Below are positions 2,646 through 62,370 of a DNA stretch of 64,000 nt, one piece after another. Source of the stretch: Acidobacteriota bacterium (GTDB taxonomy: Bacteria > Acidobacteriota > Blastocatellia > UBA7656); the NCBI GenBank assembly GCA_016201275.1, contig JACQDB010000116.1, positions 27,276-91,275 on the forward strand, in the 5' to 3' direction. A program made the translations under genes and the position numbers. The notes beneath the pieces were generated by a model, which had not been told where the DNA came from, did no database searches, and saw only the letters and a program-made list of their open reading frames with translations. How positions within the stretch are numbered: position 1 is the first letter of the stretch; every line of letters begins with the position of its first letter.

Positions 2646-2920
2646 CCTCGACTTAGTACATTTTTCAGAGGCGAACCGAGCTTGCCAATCCCCCCGATGG
2701 CAATCGGGGGATGCTTAAAGCCCAACCCTACGCAACACTGCCAACGAGAAACGAATCCCCCCGATGGAAATCGGGGGATGGTTAAAGTCCAACCTTGCCC
2801 GAGGCTCAAGGCTGGACTTTAAGCATCCCCCAACTGCCGTTGGGGGGATTGCAAAAAAACTTTGCTTGCTTGGTGTGTAGGTAGGACTTTAAGCATCCCC
2901 CAACTGCCGTTGGGGGGATT
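2642..2920. repeat. Array A of palindromic CCCCC-GAT/AAC hairpin units
   Basis: Hairpins at 2691-2710, 2758-2777, 2827-2846, 2897-2916; first two forward, last two inverted; left edge has the CTCGACTTAGTACATTTTTCAGAGGCGAACC flank seen in arrays C and D. Confidence 0.8.
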
Positions 2921-3259: not shown

Positions 3260-3913
3260 ATGAAAAATAAGAACGGCTTTTCACTAATTGAATTGCTGAT
3301 CGTCGTAGCGGTTATCGGTATCATCGCCGCCATCGCTATCCCCAATTTACTGAAATCGCGCCAGGCGGCCAACGAAGCCTCGGCTATCGGTTCGGTGCGT
3401 ACCATCGGTACGGCGCAATCAACCTATCAATCCACTACTGGCGGCGGCAAGAACTTCGCCGACTCGCTGACGACCTTGAATGCGTTTGGTCATGTGGATT
3501 CGGCTTTAGCCAACGGCGTTAAAAGTGGTTATGTGTTCGCTAGCACTGGTGTGGCTGCGACCACCAGCTTGCCTTCGTACTTTGACACCATCGCCATACC
3601 GCAATCGAGCGCCTCCCCACCCCCACCCCCACCCCCAGTCACTGCCTTTTTTGGCCCAGTGAACTTGACGCTGATCAGAGGCGTCCAAAACCGCAACCGC
3701 TTCGTGCGCGTTGGCGTGGCTTCGATATTACCGCTGCCCGCGTACTTTTACCTTCAGGTACCATCATCGGGCAGCATCTTTGGCACCGGCACTCGCAGAT
3801 TTTATGCCAATGAGATCGGCGTAATCTATGCTTGCTCGGTGAATGAGAATCCGGAACTCCCCAGCCCGCCGCCAGCCCAGCGCGTACCTACGGGTATGAC
3901 GCCGATTGAGTAA
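3260..3913 (+). CDS. Type IV pilin-like protein with prepilin N-terminal methylation motif
   Basis: MKNKNGFSLIELLIVVAVIGIIAAIAIPNLLKSRQAANEASAIGSVRTI; RBS AGGAGA upstream. Confidence 0.9.
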   Translation: MKNKNGFSLIELLIVVAVIGIIAAIAIPNLLKSRQAANEASAIGSVRTIGTAQSTYQSTTGGGKNFADSLTTLNAFGHVDSALANGVKSGYVFASTGVAATTSLPSYFDTIAIPQSSASPPPPPPPVTAFFGPVNLTLIRGVQNRNRFVRVGVASILPLPAYFYLQVPSSGSIFGTGTRRFYANEIGVIYACSVNENPELPSPPPAQRVPTGMTPIE

Positions 3914-3934
3914 CCTCTGACTATTCATTAAGTG

Positions 3935-3996
3935 AAAACCCGAAAAGAGGAAGCCCGTTACGAACTTCCTCTTTTCGCCTTTGGAGGGTTTTTATT
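3935..3996 (+). terminator. Probable intrinsic terminator after pilin gene
   Basis: CGAAAAGAGGAAG (3941-3953) pairs with CTTCCTCTTTTCG (3965-3977), followed by GGGTTTTTATTTT; T-tract slightly offset. Confidence 0.55.
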
Positions 3997-4164: not shown

Positions 4165-4931
4165 TCTTGCGCCCGCTCTTGCCAAATCGCTACGGCTTTA
4201 CAGATGAACTCGCCGACTTCATCGCTGTAAGGCTTCTTAAACGTCGTAGGCCAGTGCTGTTGATCGGCGTACAACTTATTCAAGCCTTCGCGTATGGCCG
4301 GATTGCCTTGGGTGAATTGCCCGATCAAATCCGTCCAACGCGCCGCCAGCGCTTGCGCGTTGGCGCTTGCCGGGTCTGCGCCATTAGCGATTGCTGTCTC
4401 GACATCTTTTATCAGCGTCGCCCAATCCTGCTCGGCTTTCGCCTGCAATTCCGGCGTCCACTGTTTGAGGCGCTTGGCAATCGCTTGCTGCGCTTCCTGG
4501 TCATAATATTTTTTTGCCCATTCCATTTCGTTTTGCATATTAATCACCTCGATAATTTTGTTGAAAGCCTGCCAATCAATCTCCGCTTGCGAAGCGACAA
4601 CCTGCTCGACTTCGGCGATGGCTTTGACCGCCTGCTGTAGTTGAGCCAGTTTGTCTTCGATGATCTCTCTTTGCACGCGCAGTGCGTTCGCCAAATCATC
4701 GGTTGATTGATTGAGAATGGCTTTAATTTGTGCCAGCGAAAAGCCGATAAATTTCAAGGTGACGATCTGTTGCAGACGAGCGAAATCGCGCTCCCCATAC
4801 AGACGATACCCCGCTGCCGTGCGTCCGCTCGGTTGCAACAAACCCAAGCGGTCGTAATGATGCAGCGTCCGCACCGTTACGCCTGTGAGTTTGGCGAATT
4901 CGCTCGCCTGATACCAACATCGTTCACTCAT
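4161..4931 (-). CDS. MerR-family regulator with TipA-type ligand-binding domain
   Basis: YQASEFAKLTGVTVRTLHHYDRLGLLQPSGRTAAGYRLYGERDFARLQQI HTH plus C-terminal TipAS-like region (WTDLIGQFTQGNPAIREGLNKLY). Confidence 0.9.
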   Translation of the reverse strand: MSERCWYQASEFAKLTGVTVRTLHHYDRLGLLQPSGRTAAGYRLYGERDFARLQQIVTLKFIGFSLAQIKAILNQSTDDLANALRVQREIIEDKLAQLQQAVKAIAEVEQVVASQAEIDWQAFNKIIEVINMQNEMEWAKKYYDQEAQQAIAKRLKQWTPELQAKAEQDWATLIKDVETAIANGADPASANAQALAARWTDLIGQFTQGNPAIREGLNKLYADQQHWPTTFKKPYSDEVGEFICKAVAIWQERAQD

Positions 4932-5113
4932 TGAAAGCTACTTCTCCTGACATTTTTATCCTAATGCCTGACGTAACGTCAGACTCAAGCACTTTTTTTG
5001 GAATTTTTTTTGTAACTACCCAGCATTTTTGGGGTGAGAAAAACGCGCCTATCGGGCGCTTGAAAATTCAAGTACAGGCGATCTTGCAACAGCATCTAGC
5101 GTTGCTTCACCTG

Positions 5114-6629: not shown

Positions 6630-6750
6630 GACCGTTAAGCCATTTGCCTGAATCCCCCCAACGGCAGTTGGGGGATGGTTAAAGTCCAGCCTTGAGCATC
6701 GAGCAAGGTTGGACTTTAACCATCCCCCGCTTGCCATCGGCGAGATTGGT
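6630..6750. repeat. Array B, minimal (one forward unit, one degenerate inverted unit)
   Basis: AATCCCCCCAACGGCAGTTGGGGGATGGTTAAAGTCCAGCCTTGAGCATCGAGCAAGGTTGGACTTTAACCATCCCCC. Confidence 0.75.
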
Positions 6751-16624: not shown

Positions 16625-16728
16625 CTAGAGGGTGTCGCAGAAATGGATATTTTGCCTAGGTATTGTGTGCAATGGTTTGGCTATCTACAACATATAGATG
16701 GTTTCTGAAATTCTGCGACACCCTCTAG
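16625..16728. mobile_element. MITE-like element, 18-bp terminal inverted repeats CTAGAGGGTGTCGCAGAA
   Basis: 16625-16642 and 16711-16728 are perfect inverted repeats; flanking TA dinucleotides. Confidence 0.75.
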
Positions 16729-25829: not shown

Positions 25830-28800
25830 ATGAAGATATTAATCGGCAAAGCCAACTCTGGAAAAACTACGCGCCTGCTATTGCGTATAGCGGAAGTTGT
25901 CGGCAGCAATCGCGGCAAACCGATTTTATTGGTTCCCTCAAGCAACAGCGCTGCGGTGTTTCTTGAGCGCTTAACGCCGTTTCTGCCGCCGCAATTTTCC
26001 ACCCAAGCACAACCGTTGATTATCACCTTTCCCGCTTTTGCTGAAAAACTATTTCGTCATTTGGGCAAGCCTTATGCCTTGCTGTCAACCATTGAGCGGC
26101 AGCGCATTTTGCAAAGCATCATTGCCGGATTAGCCGAAGAAAAGGCGCTGGAATATTTCGCCAACAACGCCGATAAACCCGGACTGTGGCATTCGCTGGC
26201 GAAGTTTATAGATGAGCTATGGAACAGCGGCACGGATGCGGCGGCCTTCGCAAAGGTGGCGCAGGGCGGTAGTAAAAAAGATGCTGACATCGCCAGAATT
26301 TTCCGCCGCTATGAAGCAAGGTTGCAACAGCGCCGCGTGATGGATGGCGAAAGCGCGCCGTTTTTTGCGCTTCAAGCCTTGCAGTCAATATCCGGCGCGA
26401 CTTCTCTTGAACCTGAAAAATCGCTGCAAAAGTTGCAGCAGGATTTTCCGTTGGTGGTTGCCGATGGCTTCGATTTTTTTACTGCGGTTCAGGTGCAGTT
26501 GTTGTCCACGATCAGCGCCCTTGGCATAGAAACCGCCGCCGCCTTCACCTATGAAGCCGAGCGTGCGGTGCATATGTGGCAACAGCCAACCCACCAACGC
26601 TGCAAACAGGAAGCGGCTGAGTTTCTGTTTTGTGAGGCTCAACCCGGCTCCCGCATCGCCCAGGTCGCGGCGCATTTGATGGACGATGCAAAACCAGAAT
26701 CTGATAACGAGACTGAAGACGTAGAGCGCGAGGGTGTAAAGGCGCGAGCTAAGATTACTGCTGGAAATGAACCGAGCCTTGAGCCTGAACCGAGCGTTGA
26801 ACAAGAACTGAGCATTGAGCATGAAGCGAGCGTTGGGCATGAACTGAGCCTTGAGAATGAACTGAGCGTTGAGCATGAAGCGAGCGTTGAGCACGAACCG
26901 AGCCTTGCACAAGAGCGCTTGGCCGATCAATGTACGGGCGACCACAGAGGGTCGCCCCTGCGTCAAGGGGCGACCCTCTGTGGTCGCCCGTACAAGCAAG
27001 CGATAACTGAACTAGCAGGGCGAATTTTATCACCCTCATCAACCAGTCCGAGTGACCAGAAGGGCGCAGCGACGATGCAAATCGTTTCGGCGGCGGATCG
27101 TGCCGGTGAAGTGCGCGCCGTTGCCAGAGAAATCAAACGGCTGGTCTTGGAAGAAAAAATTTCGCTTGATGAGATAACCATTGTTTGTCGTTCCTTGAAT
27201 CTCTACGCTGATCCGCTTGAGCGAGTGTTTGCGGAATGCGCTGTTCCGCTTGAACTCGACAATCAATTGCCGCTTGGCGAAAACCCTTTCATCGTTGCCT
27301 TGCTGCGGTTGGTGAATCTTCACGCCGAGCAGTTTCAACGGCGAATGGTGATAACCTCTTTGCGCTCGCCGTACTTTGATTTTTCAGCCTTCGGGTTTGA
27401 CGACGACCGGATAAATTTATTGGAGCAGATTTCGTTTAGTGAACGAATCATTCAAACCGAAGCGCAATGGCAAGAGGTGCTAGGAAATCCCCCCCAAAGC
27501 CCAGCCGTTGATGCTTATGAACCCGCTTCGCCCGTGATTGATGCACCCACGAAATCAACTCTGCTGACCAAACTCAATCAGTTTTTTACAGCGGTAAGTT
27601 TTTCACTCAAAGCGACGAGAGCAATTTTCGTTCGCCAAATTCTCGCACTGTTGAACACCCTGAAAGTCGAAGAACGCATGGCGCAAAGCGATCAGGCAAA
27701 AGTTGATGCAGCGGCGTGGCAAGCTTTTTCTACTCTTCTACAAACACTAGGCAAAGAAACTCCTCTGGAAACTTTTGCTCAAGCCAAGGCAATCAACGCC
27801 GTGCCGCCGCCAGGCCGGTTTGAAACATCGCCTCAAGAAATTAACTGGTCGGCATTTTATTACGAGTTGGAGAGCGCCGTGGCAGCGACTTCGTTCCGTC
27901 GTCCATCGCCAATGACGGCAAAGATTTTGGTGCAGGAGGCGCACAATTTACGTCCGCGAAAGTATCAAGCGATTTTTGTGATCGGCTTAATCGAAGGCGA
28001 ATTTCCTAAGAAATCCACCGAAACTACGCCTTACACGCTGGCCGAAAAAAAACGCTTGCGCCAACAGGGCATAGATTTTTCGGAGACCATCAACGATGCC
28101 GGAGCCGACTTGACGCAATTTCATAAAGCTCTGACTCGCGCTGCCGAACGCCTTTATTTAAGCTATGCGCGCACCGATTCTTCGGGCGGTGAGTTGCTGA
28201 AATCTTATCTTCTAGATGAAGTTCTCGCGGTCGCAAATCCCGCAGACCTTCATCAATTGCATCTGGAAAAACAGAATGAAAGAACAGCTATACATTGCGC
28301 CGCGTCGCTTGAAGAACTGGCGCTCATCGCCGCTGCAAGGTGGCGTCATCACCATGCAAAACGGCACGAGGCGCACGCTGCTCTTTTCGCCGACCCGCTT
28401 GCCGATATGCTGGCGGAAAATTTACCGAGTTGGCCTGCAACACGGCGTGGTCTGGCCGTAGAACAGCGCCGTCTCTCCGGCTTGGAAGTTGGCGCGTATG
28501 GCGGCGTATTTGACGACCGCATCGTTGCCGGAAAAATCAACGCGATCTTTAACGAAGACTATACCTGGAGCGCCACCCGTTTGAATGATTACGGTATCTG
28601 TCCGTTTCGCTTCTTCGCCAAACATCTGTTGAACCTCGCGCCGATCAAAGAACCCTCCGTAGGTTTTGCCGCCGAAGGTTTAGGCATCGCTTATCACAAA
28701 ATTCTTGAAAAAACTTTTCGCGATTTACGGAACAAGGGTCTGACCTTGAGCGCCGCGACGTTTGATGAGGCGGTCCAGATTGCCTACGACCACTGTGAAG

Positions 28801-29423
28801 CGACGCTGCAAAAGATGCTCGACGAGCGCCTGATTCGCCAGAGCGCTTTATGGGATTTCGAGAAGAGCGAAATGAAAAAACGCCTCCATAATCTGCTGCG
28901 CGCCGAAGCCCTTTGGCAAAGCGAACAAACCATCGAGCCGATTCGCTTTGAGCAAAGTTTCGGCCAAGGCGGACAAGCGCCGCTCACTATCGAAAGCGCC
29001 GATGGGAGCATCAAGATTCGCGGCAGCATAGATCGCATTGATAAGCAGGGCGATGGCCTGGCGGTGATTGATTATAAAACTTCACGCTCGCCAATTAATG
29101 CCAAAGATGCTCTCGAAGGGCGCAACCTGCAATTACCGATTTATCTGCTGGCGGCGCAACGTGTACTGAAACTTGGGGAAGCGGTGACCGGCGGTTATTA
29201 TCTGCACATCTACAGTTGTAAAAAAGGTTCGGAGTTTCCGAACAAAATGATGGACATGAAAACCATCACGGAAAAAGCCGAAGCCTTTATACGTGAGTAT
29301 GTGAGCAAAGCGCGCCGCGCCGAATTTCCGATTCAACCGAATCAACAACGCTGTCCGCCGTATTGCGAATTCGATTCGCTGTGCCGCATACAATCTTTAG
29401 GCGCGGCAGTCGAAGAAGAATGA
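25830..29423 (+). CDS. AddB-like PD-(D/E)XK nuclease/helicase-like protein
   Basis: MKILIGKANSGKTTRLLLRI; CPFRFFAKHLLNL; GSIDRIDKQGDGLAVIDYKTS; C-term CPPYCEFDSLC (FeS-type Cys). Confidence 0.85.
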   Translation: MKILIGKANSGKTTRLLLRIAEVVGSNRGKPILLVPSSNSAAVFLERLTPFLPPQFSTQAQPLIITFPAFAEKLFRHLGKPYALLSTIERQRILQSIIAGLAEEKALEYFANNADKPGLWHSLAKFIDELWNSGTDAAAFAKVAQGGSKKDADIARIFRRYEARLQQRRVMDGESAPFFALQALQSISGATSLEPEKSLQKLQQDFPLVVADGFDFFTAVQVQLLSTISALGIETAAAFTYEAERAVHMWQQPTHQRCKQEAAEFLFCEAQPGSRIAQVAAHLMDDAKPESDNETEDVEREGVKARAKITAGNEPSLEPEPSVEQELSIEHEASVGHELSLENELSVEHEASVEHEPSLAQERLADQCTGDHRGSPLRQGATLCGRPYKQAITELAGRILSPSSTSPSDQKGAATMQIVSAADRAGEVRAVAREIKRLVLEEKISLDEITIVCRSLNLYADPLERVFAECAVPLELDNQLPLGENPFIVALLRLVNLHAEQFQRRMVITSLRSPYFDFSAFGFDDDRINLLEQISFSERIIQTEAQWQEVLGNPPQSPAVDAYEPASPVIDAPTKSTLLTKLNQFFTAVSFSLKATRAIFVRQILALLNTLKVEERMAQSDQAKVDAAAWQAFSTLLQTLGKETPLETFAQAKAINAVPPPGRFETSPQEINWSAFYYELESAVAATSFRRPSPMTAKILVQEAHNLRPRKYQAIFVIGLIEGEFPKKSTETTPYTLAEKKRLRQQGIDFSETINDAGADLTQFHKALTRAAERLYLSYARTDSSGGELLKSYLLDEVLAVANPADLHQLHLEKQNERTAIHCAASLEELALIAAARWRHHHAKRHEAHAALFADPLADMLAENLPSWPATRRGLAVEQRRLSGLEVGAYGGVFDDRIVAGKINAIFNEDYTWSATRLNDYGICPFRFFAKHLLNLAPIKEPSVGFAAEGLGIAYHKILEKTFRDLRNKGLTLSAATFDEAVQIAYDHCEATLQKMLDERLIRQSALWDFEKSEMKKRLHNLLRAEALWQSEQTIEPIRFEQSFGQGGQAPLTIESADGSIKIRGSIDRIDKQGDGLAVIDYKTSRSPINAKDALEGRNLQLPIYLLAAQRVLKLGEAVTGGYYLHIYSCKKGSEFPNKMMDMKTITEKAEAFIREYVSKARRAEFPIQPNQQRCPPYCEFDSLCRIQSLGAAVEEE
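26769..26912 (+). repeat. 18-bp tandem repeat, 8 units, inside AddB-like CDS
   Basis: Units GAACCGAGCCTTGAGCCT / GAACTGAGCATTGAGCAT / GAAGCGAGCGTTGAGCAC etc. encode E-[PLA]-S-[VLI]-E-[HQPN]. Confidence 0.9.
26931..26994. repeat. Perfect palindrome, 29-bp arms, 6-nt loop, inside AddB-like CDS
   Basis: TGTACGGGCGACCACAGAGGGTCGCCCCT-GCGTCA-AGGGGCGACCCTCTGTGGTCGCCCGTACA, translated as TGDHRGSPLRQGATLCGRPY. Confidence 0.95.
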
Positions 29424-36916: not shown

Positions 36917-37359
36917 GTTCAGCCCTTTTCGTCACGCCTGCATGATTGACCGGCAACCCGTTGCCAAAGCGGAAGCCATTCTGTCACAGTGAAAGACAAA
37001 TTATGTCAAAATGAAAAGAGCAAAAAATTAAAGCTTGAAATTTTGAGAAAATTTACCCCTATATAGGCGGCACAATAGTTGCAAATGAACTTTATGAATG
37101 ACGCGCTCTGTACCAGCAAATTGCTCGAATGCGGTCATTCAATCTTTGATGTTCTTTGAAGCGGAGCGGTAACTTATCGCTCTTTCAGCAAATGTTTGAT
37201 TGGATTTGAATTGACGGAGGTTGAATTCCTTGCCTTACTCCCTTGAGGTAGTGGAAGCCCGATTCACACTCTGTTACCAATCCACTCAAAGCGCGAATCG
37301 GCTCAAGTAGGTCAGCGTGAATTACCCCTCACGCGAGACGATGCGCGCTACTCGTTTCA

Positions 37360-37425
37360 CCGATAAAGGCACACCAGGAGTGATCCTGGGTCGCAAAGCC
37401 AAGGTCTTCGTGAAGCGATGATGCA
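37360..37425 (+). ncRNA. Candidate c-di-GMP-I (GEMM) riboswitch
   Basis: AAAGGCACACCAGGAGTGATCCTGGGTCGCAAAGCCAAGGTCT: GGC/GCC closing pair, CCAGGA-GTGA-TCCTGG GNRA-capped helix, CGCAAAGCC core. Confidence 0.65.
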
Positions 37426-37429
37426 GGAA

Positions 37430-37459: not shown

Positions 37460-37704
37460 CTGTATTCATCTCGCCACGAAGAATGACTGGCTGCCGAGTG
37501 AGATGAATCCCTTCCTAAAGATTCCATCTCACCCACAACTACATAGCAGGAGGTCCCTAAATGGTTCACTCTTAGCCGCAACGACGATTCCCCAATCGTG
37601 TTTCGGCAAGGAGGCTGCCAGCCGGTTCCCGCCGCTTGCTCTTTCGCCCCACGACAGAGCATCAGGCGTAAGGCCGAGGTGTGCAGCGCAGAGGGGTTAT
37701 TGAG

Positions 37705-39873
37705 ATGGAAAATTACAAACGATTCTTACTGGTTTTCGGGTTTTTGATTTTGTTCTTCGGTAGCGTTGCCGCCGGTTCTTCGAGCGCCGCTACTCTCTAC
37801 GTTGCCACCAACGGCAGCGATTCCAACACCGGAACGCAGAGCGCGCCGGTTGCCACCATCGGCAGAGCCTTTGTGCTTGCCGCGCCCGGCGACACCATTT
37901 ATCTTCGCGGTGGTCGCTACAATCTCAGCCGCTATGTCTATATTGATAAAGCGGGCTTGACCTTCTCTTCTTATCCGGGTGAATCGGCGGTCATCGTTGG
38001 CAGCAATACCGACGCCGCGAACATGGGTTATGTCATGTATCTGGGTGCTGACAACATCACTTTGCAGAACCTGGAAATTCAAGGCGGCGAAACTTACGTA
38101 GTGAAAATCGAGTCCAATCTGAATGCCGTGCTTCGCAATTGCCGCATCTGGAACAGTGGACGCGATTGCATCAAGACCTTCAACGCCGACAATCTGTTGA
38201 TTGAAAAATGCAACATCGGCCCATCCGGGGTGCGCGATCCTTCCAATGCCGAAGGCATAGATTCCATAGGCTCCATCGGCATCACCATACGCGATTGCTA
38301 TCTTCACGATACCGCCACCAACGGCTTGTACTTAAAAGGCGGCGCTAAGAATGCCATCGTCGAACGCAACCGTGTAGAGAATTGCGGTCACGGCGGAATC
38401 TTGATGGGACAGGACACCGATCTGGAATTTATGCGCGACGGCACGGTTTACGAATGTCTCGACTCCGTTGCTCGCAATAACATCGTCATCAATACCAACG
38501 GCGCAGGCATAGGCACTTACTCCGGCTCGAACATACGCTTCGAGAACAACACCCTGGTGGATGTGGCCAAACAATTTCACGGCGGTTTTTATGTTGTCAC
38601 CAATGGCCGCGAAATTCCCGCCCGTCAGATTTCTTTCAAAAATAATGTAGTGGTCGTCAACAGCACTCGTCCGATGGCTTTTGTCATTAACCTTTCAGAC
38701 AATCTGGTTTCCAATTCCAACATCTGGTACAAAGCCAACGGCGGCACGTACAAATTTTTCCTCGAATCGCCGACACGCACCTATTATTGGGAAAGCTTCA
38801 GCGATTGGCAGGCGGGAATGAATGTGGATTCTCGTTCCTTGATTACCGACCCGATGTTGGACGCTACCAATGTTTGCCAGCCTTTAGCCAACAGCCCGAC
38901 CATAGATAAAGGCGAAGCGGTAAACAACCCGAACGATTTTGCTGCGGCAGCTCGACCGCAAGGCGCGGCTTTCGACATCGGCGCGCACGAACGCGGCAGT
39001 GCCACCGCTCCTCCTCCGACCAATCAACCGCCAACCGTCAGTGTTACCGCTACGCCGACCACCGGCACTACGCCGCTTAACGTCGCCTTCGTTGCCAACG
39101 CCAACGACCCCGAAAGACAGGCGATGACGTATAGCTGGAATTTCGGTGATGGCCAGAGTTCAACGCAGGCTTCGCCTTCGCACCTTTATCAATCGGCGGG
39201 CAGCTTCACTTCTACCTTGACTGTAACCGACGCCGGTGGCTTGACCGCCAGTGCTACGGTGGTAATTACGGCCAACGCCGCGAGCAACCGCGCACCTACA
39301 GTTTCAGTAACGCCTTCGACGACTTCCGGTGCTGCGGCGCTGTCGGTCACTTTCAACACCACGGCGGCAGATGCCGATGGTACAGTGGTTTCTTATGCTT
39401 GGAATTTTGGTGACGGGCAGAGCGCAACGGTCGCCTCGCCGACTCACGTTTATCAGAATGCCGGAACCTATACGGCCACTGTTGTCGTGCGCGACAACGG
39501 CGGCGCGACTGCTGGAACGCAAGTCACGATTACTGTAACCCAGGCGCAGACCCAAGCCATCGTCATTCGATTGGTAACTCCGGTAGGCGGCGAAGTCATC
39601 AACGGTAACAGCAAAATCACGATTCAATGGTCGCTCACCGGCACCGGAGTTTCCCGTCAGGATGTCGCTTATTCGTTGGATGGCGGCGCGACCTGGATTG
39701 ACATTGTCAACGGCCCCGGCGGCTACAGCAGTTTGGAATGGACGGTTCCCAATGTGAAATGCAAAGCCGTTAAAGTTCGTGTGGTGGTCTATGGCCCGCA
39801 AGGTACGGAACAAGACCAGAGCAAAGCCAACTTCACCATCGTCAAAGTCAAAAAAGGCAAAGCTCAAGGCTAA
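37705..39873 (+). CDS. Secreted right-handed beta-helix protein with two PKD domains
   Basis: Parallel beta-helix region; TYSWNFGDGQSSTQASPSHLYQSAGSFTSTLTVTD and SYAWNFGDGQSATVASPTHVYQNAGTYTATVVVRD. Confidence 0.88.
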   Translation: MENYKRFLLVFGFLILFFGSVAAGSSSAATLYVATNGSDSNTGTQSAPVATIGRAFVLAAPGDTIYLRGGRYNLSRYVYIDKAGLTFSSYPGESAVIVGSNTDAANMGYVMYLGADNITLQNLEIQGGETYVVKIESNLNAVLRNCRIWNSGRDCIKTFNADNLLIEKCNIGPSGVRDPSNAEGIDSIGSIGITIRDCYLHDTATNGLYLKGGAKNAIVERNRVENCGHGGILMGQDTDLEFMRDGTVYECLDSVARNNIVINTNGAGIGTYSGSNIRFENNTLVDVAKQFHGGFYVVTNGREIPARQISFKNNVVVVNSTRPMAFVINLSDNLVSNSNIWYKANGGTYKFFLESPTRTYYWESFSDWQAGMNVDSRSLITDPMLDATNVCQPLANSPTIDKGEAVNNPNDFAAAARPQGAAFDIGAHERGSATAPPPTNQPPTVSVTATPTTGTTPLNVAFVANANDPERQAMTYSWNFGDGQSSTQASPSHLYQSAGSFTSTLTVTDAGGLTASATVVITANAASNRAPTVSVTPSTTSGAAALSVTFNTTAADADGTVVSYAWNFGDGQSATVASPTHVYQNAGTYTATVVVRDNGGATAGTQVTITVTQAQTQAIVIRLVTPVGGEVINGNSKITIQWSLTGTGVSRQDVAYSLDGGATWIDIVNGPGGYSSLEWTVPNVKCKAVKVRVVVYGPQGTEQDQSKANFTIVKVKKGKAQG

Positions 39874-40004: not shown

Positions 40005-40138
40005 GTAACTATCCAGCCACTGCTTGCAGCTGTGCAGCGAAAAGCAACACCAGTCTAGCGGAGAGTCCGAGACCCTCCGCACCTCAAAGCGGCACCGCCG
40101 CACTGCATTCAACTGTCACAAGAAAGCTGGGAAATTAC
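40005..40138. repeat. GTAAC...CCAG palindromic element, 134 bp copy
   Basis: GTAACTATCCAGCCACTGC ... CTGTCACAAGAAAGCTGGGAAATTAC with internal GCGGCaccGCCGC. Confidence 0.6.
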
Positions 40139-46392: not shown

Positions 46393-46979
46393 CTAAGCTC
46401 GACTTTGTACAATTTCAAATTGAACCACACCAATCAAGCGCTGACATTGCGGTGCGCGCTTGGAATGATTGAACCTCACCTCAACAAGATGAGGGGCAAT
46501 AATTCCAAGGGTTGAAAAAGCCTATAAAATCAGGCTACTTCGCCTCTGAAAAACCTAGCAATGGAGAGCCGAGGCAGTGAGGCAATTCGTCTGAATCCCC
46601 CAACGGAGAGCCGAGGCGGTGAGGCCATTCGCCTGAATCCCCCCAACGGTAGTTGGGGGATGCTTAAAGTCCTACCTACACACCAAGCCAGCAAAGTTTT
46701 TTTGCAACCCCCCCAACGGTAGTTGGGGGATGCTTAAAGTCCAGCCTTGAGCCTCGGACAAGGTTCGACTTTAACCATCCCCAACTGCCGTTGGGGGGGA
46801 TTCGTTTATCGTTGGCAGCGTTTCGTAGGTAGGACTTTAAGCATCCCCCAACTGCCGTTGGGGGGATTCGTAGATGTTGCGCGGCGTTTTGTAGGTTGGA
46901 CTTTAAGCATCCCCCGATTGCCATCGGGGGGATTGGCAAGACTGGTTCGCCTCTGAAAATGTACAAAGTCTAGTTAAGC
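46393..46979. mobile_element. Array C: TIR-bounded array of palindromic units
   Basis: CTAAGCTCGACTTTGTACAATTTC at left, GAAAATGTACAAAGTCTAGTTAAG at right; hairpins at 46640-46659, 46710-46729, 46779-46796, 46845-46864, 46911-46930. Confidence 0.75.
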
Positions 46980-52996: not shown

Positions 52997-53236
52997 GTAA
53001 CAACCCAGTCAGTGCTTGTGGCTGTGCCGCTTTGATGTGCGGAAAGGGCTACGTCTTTCCGTAAACTGCGTTCCCCACTCTCGCGGCTGCGCCGCCCAGA
53101 GGCTTTGCCGCCAAGCTTTTCTGCGGCGCAGCCGCGAACAAGGAGAGCCAGCCTACGGGAGAGTCGCAGACTCTCCGCACCTCAAAGCGGCACAGCCGCA
53201 CAGCATTCAACTCTCACAAAAAGGCTGGGAAGTTAC
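52997..53236. repeat. GTAAC...CCCAGTC palindromic element, 240 bp copy
   Basis: GTAACAACCCAGTCAGTGCTTGTGGCTGTGCCGC ... GCGGCACAGCCGCACAGCATTCAACTCTCACAAAAAGGCTGGGAAGTTAC. Confidence 0.65.
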
Positions 53237-61997: not shown

Positions 61998-62370
61998 ACT
62001 AAGCTCGACTTTGTACATTTTTCAGAGGTGAACCAGCCTTGCTAATCCCCCCGACGGCAGTCGGGGAGGCTTAAAATCCAACCTACAAAACGCCGCGCAG
62101 CCTCAACCAATCCCCCCGACGGCAGTCGGGGATGCTTAAAGCCCAACCTACGAAACGCTGCCTACGATAAACCAATCCCCCCGATGGAAATCGGGGGATG
62201 GTTAAAGTTCAACCTACGAAAACGCCGCCAAAGCTCAACGAATCCTCCCGATGGAAATCGGGGGATGGTTAAAGTCCAACCTTGCCCGATGCTCAAGGCT
62301 GGACTTTAACCATCCCCCAACTGCCGTTGGGGGGATTGCAAAAAAAAATTGTACAAAGTCGAGCTAAGTA
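61998..62370. mobile_element. Array D: TIR-bounded array of palindromic units
   Basis: CTAAGCTCGACTTTGTACA at left, TGTACAAAGTCGAGCTAAG at right; hairpins at 62049-62066, 62114-62131, 62178-62197, 62245-62264 (forward), 62314-62333 (inverted). Confidence 0.82.

Follow-up and report, generated by a model that had tools for sequence, protein, structure and literature searches.

REP-type hairpin arrays inside MITEs, and a gene for a two-domain Y1 transposase with the same hairpins on both sides, in an Acidobacteriota genome

The window analysed here, a stretch of 64,000 nucleotides of an Acidobacteriota genome, contains exactly 16 short hairpin units in four arrays, at 2687-2920 (four units), 6651-6747 (two), 46636-46934 (five) and 62043-62337 (five), all of them intergenic relative to the main open reading frames. 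Each unit consists of a GTAG (or CAAG) tag, a 16-nt linker (e.g. GTTGGACTTTAAGCAT), a GC-rich stem of 7-8 bp with a 4-nt loop and, finally, GATT; the tag is thus found 20 nt ahead of the stem. The original prediction had counted about 16 hairpins in four arrays, which is borne out, and had overlooked the tag. It had also remarked, rightly, that the units are not separated by unique spacers of the CRISPR type, since the inter-unit spacers are found again in other arrays.

The interval singled out by that prediction (61998-62370) proves to be one TIR-bounded element, a feature that had escaped notice, namely a MITE at 62000-62367 (no strand assigned), in which the TIRs and the identical 3-bp flanks, i.e. 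the TAA target duplication present on each side, are included. Its left TIR GCTCGACTTTGTACA, at the short-flank end, lies at 62003-62017 (plus strand) and its right TIR, again GCTCGACTTTGTACA, at 62350-62364 (minus). Between them are found two GTAG units with the stem GAC/GTC (62043-62086 and 62108-62151), a GTAG unit with the stem GAT/ATC (62174-62217) and an innermost CAAG unit with the stem GAT/ATC (62241-62284), all four on the minus strand, and, facing the latter, an innermost CAAG unit with the stem AAC/GTT on the plus strand (62294-62337). A second complete element (46394-46977, no strand assigned, TAA target duplication included) is delimited by a left TIR at the long-flank end (46397-46411, plus) and by a right TIR with two mismatches, ACTAGACTTTGTACA (46960-46974, minus); it encloses a GTAG unit (46636-46679, minus), two innermost CAAG units (46706-46749, minus; 46759-46802, plus) and two further GTAG units on the plus strand (46825-46868 and, with the stem GAT/ATC, 46891-46934). 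The first array belongs to a truncated element with a single TIR-like end, CCTCGACTTAGTACA, at 2646-2660 (plus), and is made up of a unit with the stem GAT/ATC in which GTAG is displaced by one inserted base (2687-2730, minus), innermost CAAG units at 2754-2797 (minus) and 2807-2850 (plus), and a GTAG unit at 2877-2920 (plus). The remaining array is a remnant pair of CAAG units without TIRs (6651-6694, minus; 6704-6747, plus, its stem partly decayed).

In the 6.84-Mb assembly, a genome-wide search returned 430 matches to the core GGGGATGSTTAAAGTCC with at most two mismatches, against 2 for a reversed-pattern control. Among 240 units selected by their linker only, the tag is GTAG in 143 and CAAG in 71; in the window, CAAG is confined to the pair of units that face each other in the middle of an array. 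The stem variants AAC/GTT, GAT/ATC and GAC/GTC, which the prediction had listed as occurring with pairing mostly kept, do so in 112, 55 and 14 of these 240 units, respectively, while 12 more carry a GAC/ATC stem in which one pair is broken. The proportion of paired cells in the same set is 90.0%, compared with 83.1% in shuffles (shuffle maximum 84.1%), and folding of four units as single-stranded DNA gave z-scores from -2.3 to -3.1. Taken alone, the within-genome evidence for covariation is modest, because the stem haplotypes are few and have been propagated by copying.

The organization of the arrays was studied in a sample of 62 arrays of at least two units, which is a part of all arrays in this genome. 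Direct repeats spaced by about 66 bp form one arm, which a short palindromic centre joins to the opposite arm; either arm may be absent. The polarity of the arrays, also overlooked before, is identical in 62 of 62, with no plus unit after a minus unit in the strand labels of that scan. Nested self-insertion was considered as the cause of such layering and was dropped, the arms being unequal in unit number in many arrays. Nearly all sampled arrays are held in a carrier element of 360-711 bp with inverted ends of sequence GCTCGACTTTGTACA and a 3-bp target duplication. Both TIRs are present in 37 of the 62, and the only TIR-less arrays with sequence on both sides are the pair at 6651-6747 of the window and the transposase locus described below. 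Identical 3-bp flanks, mostly TTA or TAA, accompany 31 of 38 TIR pairs (shuffled mean 10.3, maximum 20). The assemblies are drafts broken at arrays: in the present one (G000), many contigs (C2, C9, C11, C13, C35, C45 and others) start or stop within the centre of an array or within a TIR element. A separate short inverted-repeat family, GAGCGTGTCGCAGA...TGCGACACCCTC, probably a second MITE family, is found in the window at 2543-2625 and 16644-16726, and also adjoins other TIR elements (L038).

As to the origin of the carrier, a first guess of IS5-like ends, prompted by the TNA duplication, was replaced when the element with matching ends turned out to be of the IS701 family. This insertion sequence, on contig C135, has an open reading frame of 389 aa (NF049999, 289.6 bits against a cut-off of 170), ends GCTCGACTTTATCCA and a TTA target duplication. 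It is probably related to the element that would have mobilised the MITE, but is perhaps not the actual mobiliser, as the two sets of ends agree at 12 of 14 compared bases. The MITE thus resembles other IS701-related MITEs in having TIRs, a short target duplication, no coding capacity and, in the same genome, an insertion sequence with a comparable TIR and a duplication of the same type; it differs from them in having a REP array as its interior, for which no precedent was found in the literature searched.

A search of the genome with the Y1_Tnp profile (PF01797) gave eight matches, two of which are the halves of one open reading frame on contig C80. This gene, present as one full-length copy, encodes a protein of 276 residues with two Y1_Tnp domains, and is bordered by several hairpins on each side, in inverted orientation and with their GTAG ends facing the gene; these hairpins stand outside any TIR element. 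The right arm of the locus matches positions 2807-2920 of the window at 90% over 114 bp. Because this match includes the inter-unit spacer, the dispersed arrays would descend from a C80-like locus, or the reverse. No hairpins were detected within about 1.5 kb of the six other Y1_Tnp places.

Homologues comprising both domains were found in the same family (G005 and G002), in other Acidobacteriota, and in Pirellulaceae, Anammoximicrobium and Verrucomicrobia, and nearly all of their loci carry their own cognate hairpins in the flanks. The units read GTAGGTTGAGCTTGAACCAT-CCACCCAC..GTGGGTGG-GATT in G005, GTAGGCTGAGTATGAACAAT-CCACCAAC..GTTGGTGG-GATT in G002 and GTAGCGAAGAGCCTAACGAT-CCACCGG..CCGGTGG-GATT in Pirellulaceae, and the distance from GTAG to the stem is mostly 20 nt, otherwise 19 or 21. 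The order GTAG, 16-nt linker, hairpin and GATT is common to nearly all of them. As to individual loci, L095 has TTAG in place of GTAG, L095/L114 has units on one side only, the verrucomicrobial locus retains decayed hairpin remnants only, the hairpin scan found none at the G038 locus, and G022 has the tandem protein with its own diverged GTAG hairpins. Pattern matches in G001 and G006 have no hairpin and look like chance. At L104, the closest relative (74%), one stem family, CCGCCAAC, precedes the gene (3800-3980) and another, CCACCGAC, follows it (4837-4980), so that REP families may have split within a single locus. In G005, several arrays (loci L074, L077 and L078) are bounded by inverted GTAGTGTCTTAA ends, whose sequence is unrelated to that of the G000 ends, so that REP arrays seemingly entered MITEs at least twice. 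That hairpins could have arisen merely as the interior of an IS701-derived MITE, with no relation to a Y1 transposase, would agree with the enclosure of nearly all sampled arrays between TIRs with a target duplication; however, the same hairpins flank the tandem gene outside TIR elements, homologues in other phyla are flanked by cognate ones, and the G005 arrays reside in elements with a different TIR, which together make such an origin distinctly improbable.

The homologous loci also provide a second view of the stems, whose sequences differ among loci with pairing retained. When 26 units, taken from 12 transposase loci and from the G000 and G005 arrays, are aligned, compensatory changes are found in five of the seven stem pairs, with no broken pair, and the covariation score is 0.570, compared with 0.144 for shuffled and at most 0.095 for slid alignments; since the units were chosen by hairpin, the 'all paired' figure suffers from bias, which affects the diversity of pair types to a lesser degree. 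The earlier claim that paired changes argue for selection on the folded strand is thereby supported. Covarying stems, the intergenic position of the arrays and the roles credited to published REPs (PMC8266576) would also suit hairpins acting mainly as RNA, be it as terminators, mRNA stabilisers or processed intergenic RNAs. Against this, an Rfam scan of the window found no family at the arrays (the sole match being a c-di-GMP-I riboswitch), conservation extends beyond the stem to GTAG and the linker, which are unpaired, and the units go together with an enzyme that processes DNA, so that a main function as RNA appears very improbable, although a secondary one is compatible with the data. Association of the units with an HUH transposase suggests that they act as single-stranded DNA, and no RNA role is needed.

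Of 118 genomes belonging to the class, six have a strong match to the tandem protein and eight have at least five matches to a custom RNA model of the REP (the threshold for a positive genome, the E-values of the model being rough), four being common to both sets (p=1.3e-4). REP and protein distances are correlated (Mantel r=0.86, p=0.013, n=8); much of this correlation is probably due to the split between Acidobacteriota and Planctomycetes. These data bear on whether another, single-domain Y1 protein might serve the REPs, the tandem protein being a mere neighbour. The six other Y1_Tnp places in the genome would offer candidates, and no tandem protein was detected in four REP-positive draft genomes (G003, G027, G099 and G110); but the lack of units within about 1.5 kb of those six places, the many tandem-protein loci flanked by cognate hairpins across phyla and the correlation of distances render this highly improbable.

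The tandem protein itself was compared among 12 sequences, of which L095 is without the N-terminal strand. The first domain (D1) has lost the HUH motif in 12 of 12 (HLR, QFR, NLR, HVQ, TDV and similar are found instead) and has kept its tyrosine, within Y-x3-Q-x2-HH, in all 12. The second domain (D2) has kept HUH (D-H-x-H) in 12 of 12, its tyrosine position being occupied by Phe or Trp in seven proteins of Acidobacteriota and by Tyr in the other five. With both the D1 HUH and the D2 tyrosine lost, the residues of the seven allow no more than a single active site, from D2-HUH and D1-Tyr, while the tyrosine kept in the five makes a site within D2 possible there. In IS608 TnpA dimers, the tyrosine of one subunit serves the HUH motif of the other. 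By analogy, the fusion looks like an IS608-type dimer in which one site has been abandoned. In the tree, D1 forms one clade (support 97/92) and so does D2 (99/97), so that a single fusion event suffices; D1 is placed beside Y-x3-Q-x2-HH proteins that have one domain, and D2 beside a protein of the IS200 type, with support (94/78) below the tool's threshold. A structure search with the AF2 model (pLDDT 90, pTM 0.87) found ISDra2 and IS608 TnpA as the closest structures (best E ~1e-9), with the E. coli RAYT 4er8 at 1.4e-4, and the NCBIfam RAYT model scored the protein at 57.5 bits, below its cut-off of 80.

Comparison with known systems places these repeats close to, though apart from, the REPs of the TnpA-REP (RAYT) subclasses 2.2, 2.4, 2.5, 2.7 and 2.8 (PMC6006769, PMC8266576, PMC2817692), with which they share high copy number, intergenic position, palindromic structure and the GTAG tag. 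As in a REPtron, a Y1 transposase gene lies between inverted cognate REPs, and every protein is accompanied by a REP family of its own. The arrays are therefore REPs in the operational sense, as the same hairpins flank a Y1 gene here and cognate ones do so in relatives; the original prediction, which had left the family unrecognised and offered REP/BIME as an analogy only, was in essence right about REPs but too cautious; the arrangement differs from that of BIMEs, since unit orientations do not alternate, as those of REPs in BIMEs do, in any of the 62 sampled arrays, their polarity being fixed. In published REPs, GT[AG]G stands at the stem foot or 1-2 nt off, against the 20 nt seen here; the enzymes that go with those REPs are class 2 TnpA of a single domain with Y-x3-NP (PMC6006769, PMC8266576), unlike the present protein with its Y-x3-Q-x2-HH motif and two Y1 domains which, to judge from the residues kept, would form one usable site in most members. 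The motif of D1 is the signature of TnpA-Y1 subclass 1.2, whose members are single-domain and reported without REPs (PMC6006769). The Y1 fold, with the closest solved structures, and the position of hairpins next to the gene are shared with IS200/IS605 elements (ISDra2, IS608), from which the locus differs by the two fused domains, the many hairpins per side, the absence of any highly similar multicopy insertion sequence for the gene, and the fact that no tnpB was seen beside it. No two-domain RAYT was found in the literature searched, including PMC6006769, PMC2817692, PMC3733652 and PMC8266576 (subscription papers were outside its scope); in the survey of PMC6006769, unexpectedly long proteins had been discarded. 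In short, the system resembles a REPtron yet departs in two features from canonical REPs and known RAYTs.

We regard it as probable that the arrays consist of REP-type repeats belonging to a kind of RAYT not described before and were spread by a MITE; a composite active site and hitchhiking are proposed for this system. The tandem protein would bind the GTAG-linker-hairpin as single-stranded DNA and may cut or join the REP strand by one composite site, formed by D2-HUH and D1-Tyr, which would act like an IS200/IS605 dimer in trans, within one polypeptide. The dispersed arrays may be copies of the two hairpin arms of the gene after deletion of the transposase, a reading suggested by the polarity and spacers, which match those of the arms. 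An IS701-family transposase would then have dispersed the MITE, so that the present genome-wide spread would be mainly hitchhiking, and unit number would have changed afterwards. On balance, we also favour the broader view of a distinct RAYT class in Acidobacteriota, Planctomycetes and Verrucomicrobia, in which a subclass-1.2-like and an IS200-like Y1 domain would be fused, with exactly one composite site and a new REP geometry, and whose arrays would have been captured, in two or more genera and each time independently, by DDE-transposon MITEs that differ in their ends.

If it is true, a natural single-chain, single-site pseudo-dimer would allow the roles of the two halves of a Y1 transposase to be told apart by means of point mutations, a difficult task with homodimers, and, as the 16-nt linker keeps tag and hairpin physically apart, their roles can be tested separately. 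The mode of REP spread is an open question (PMC8266576), for which REP arrays inside IS701-type MITEs would represent a second route of dispersal, with the warning that REP copy number need not reflect RAYT activity.

Three other features of the window may be recorded. The c-di-GMP-I riboswitch (37358-37428; 35.1 bits against a gathering score of 35) lies upstream of the open reading frame at 37681-39873; an 89-bp direct repeat, 87% identical, is found at 40050-40138 and 53148-53236; and eight copies of an 18-bp tandem repeat occupy 26749-26928, within the open reading frame at 25830-29423.
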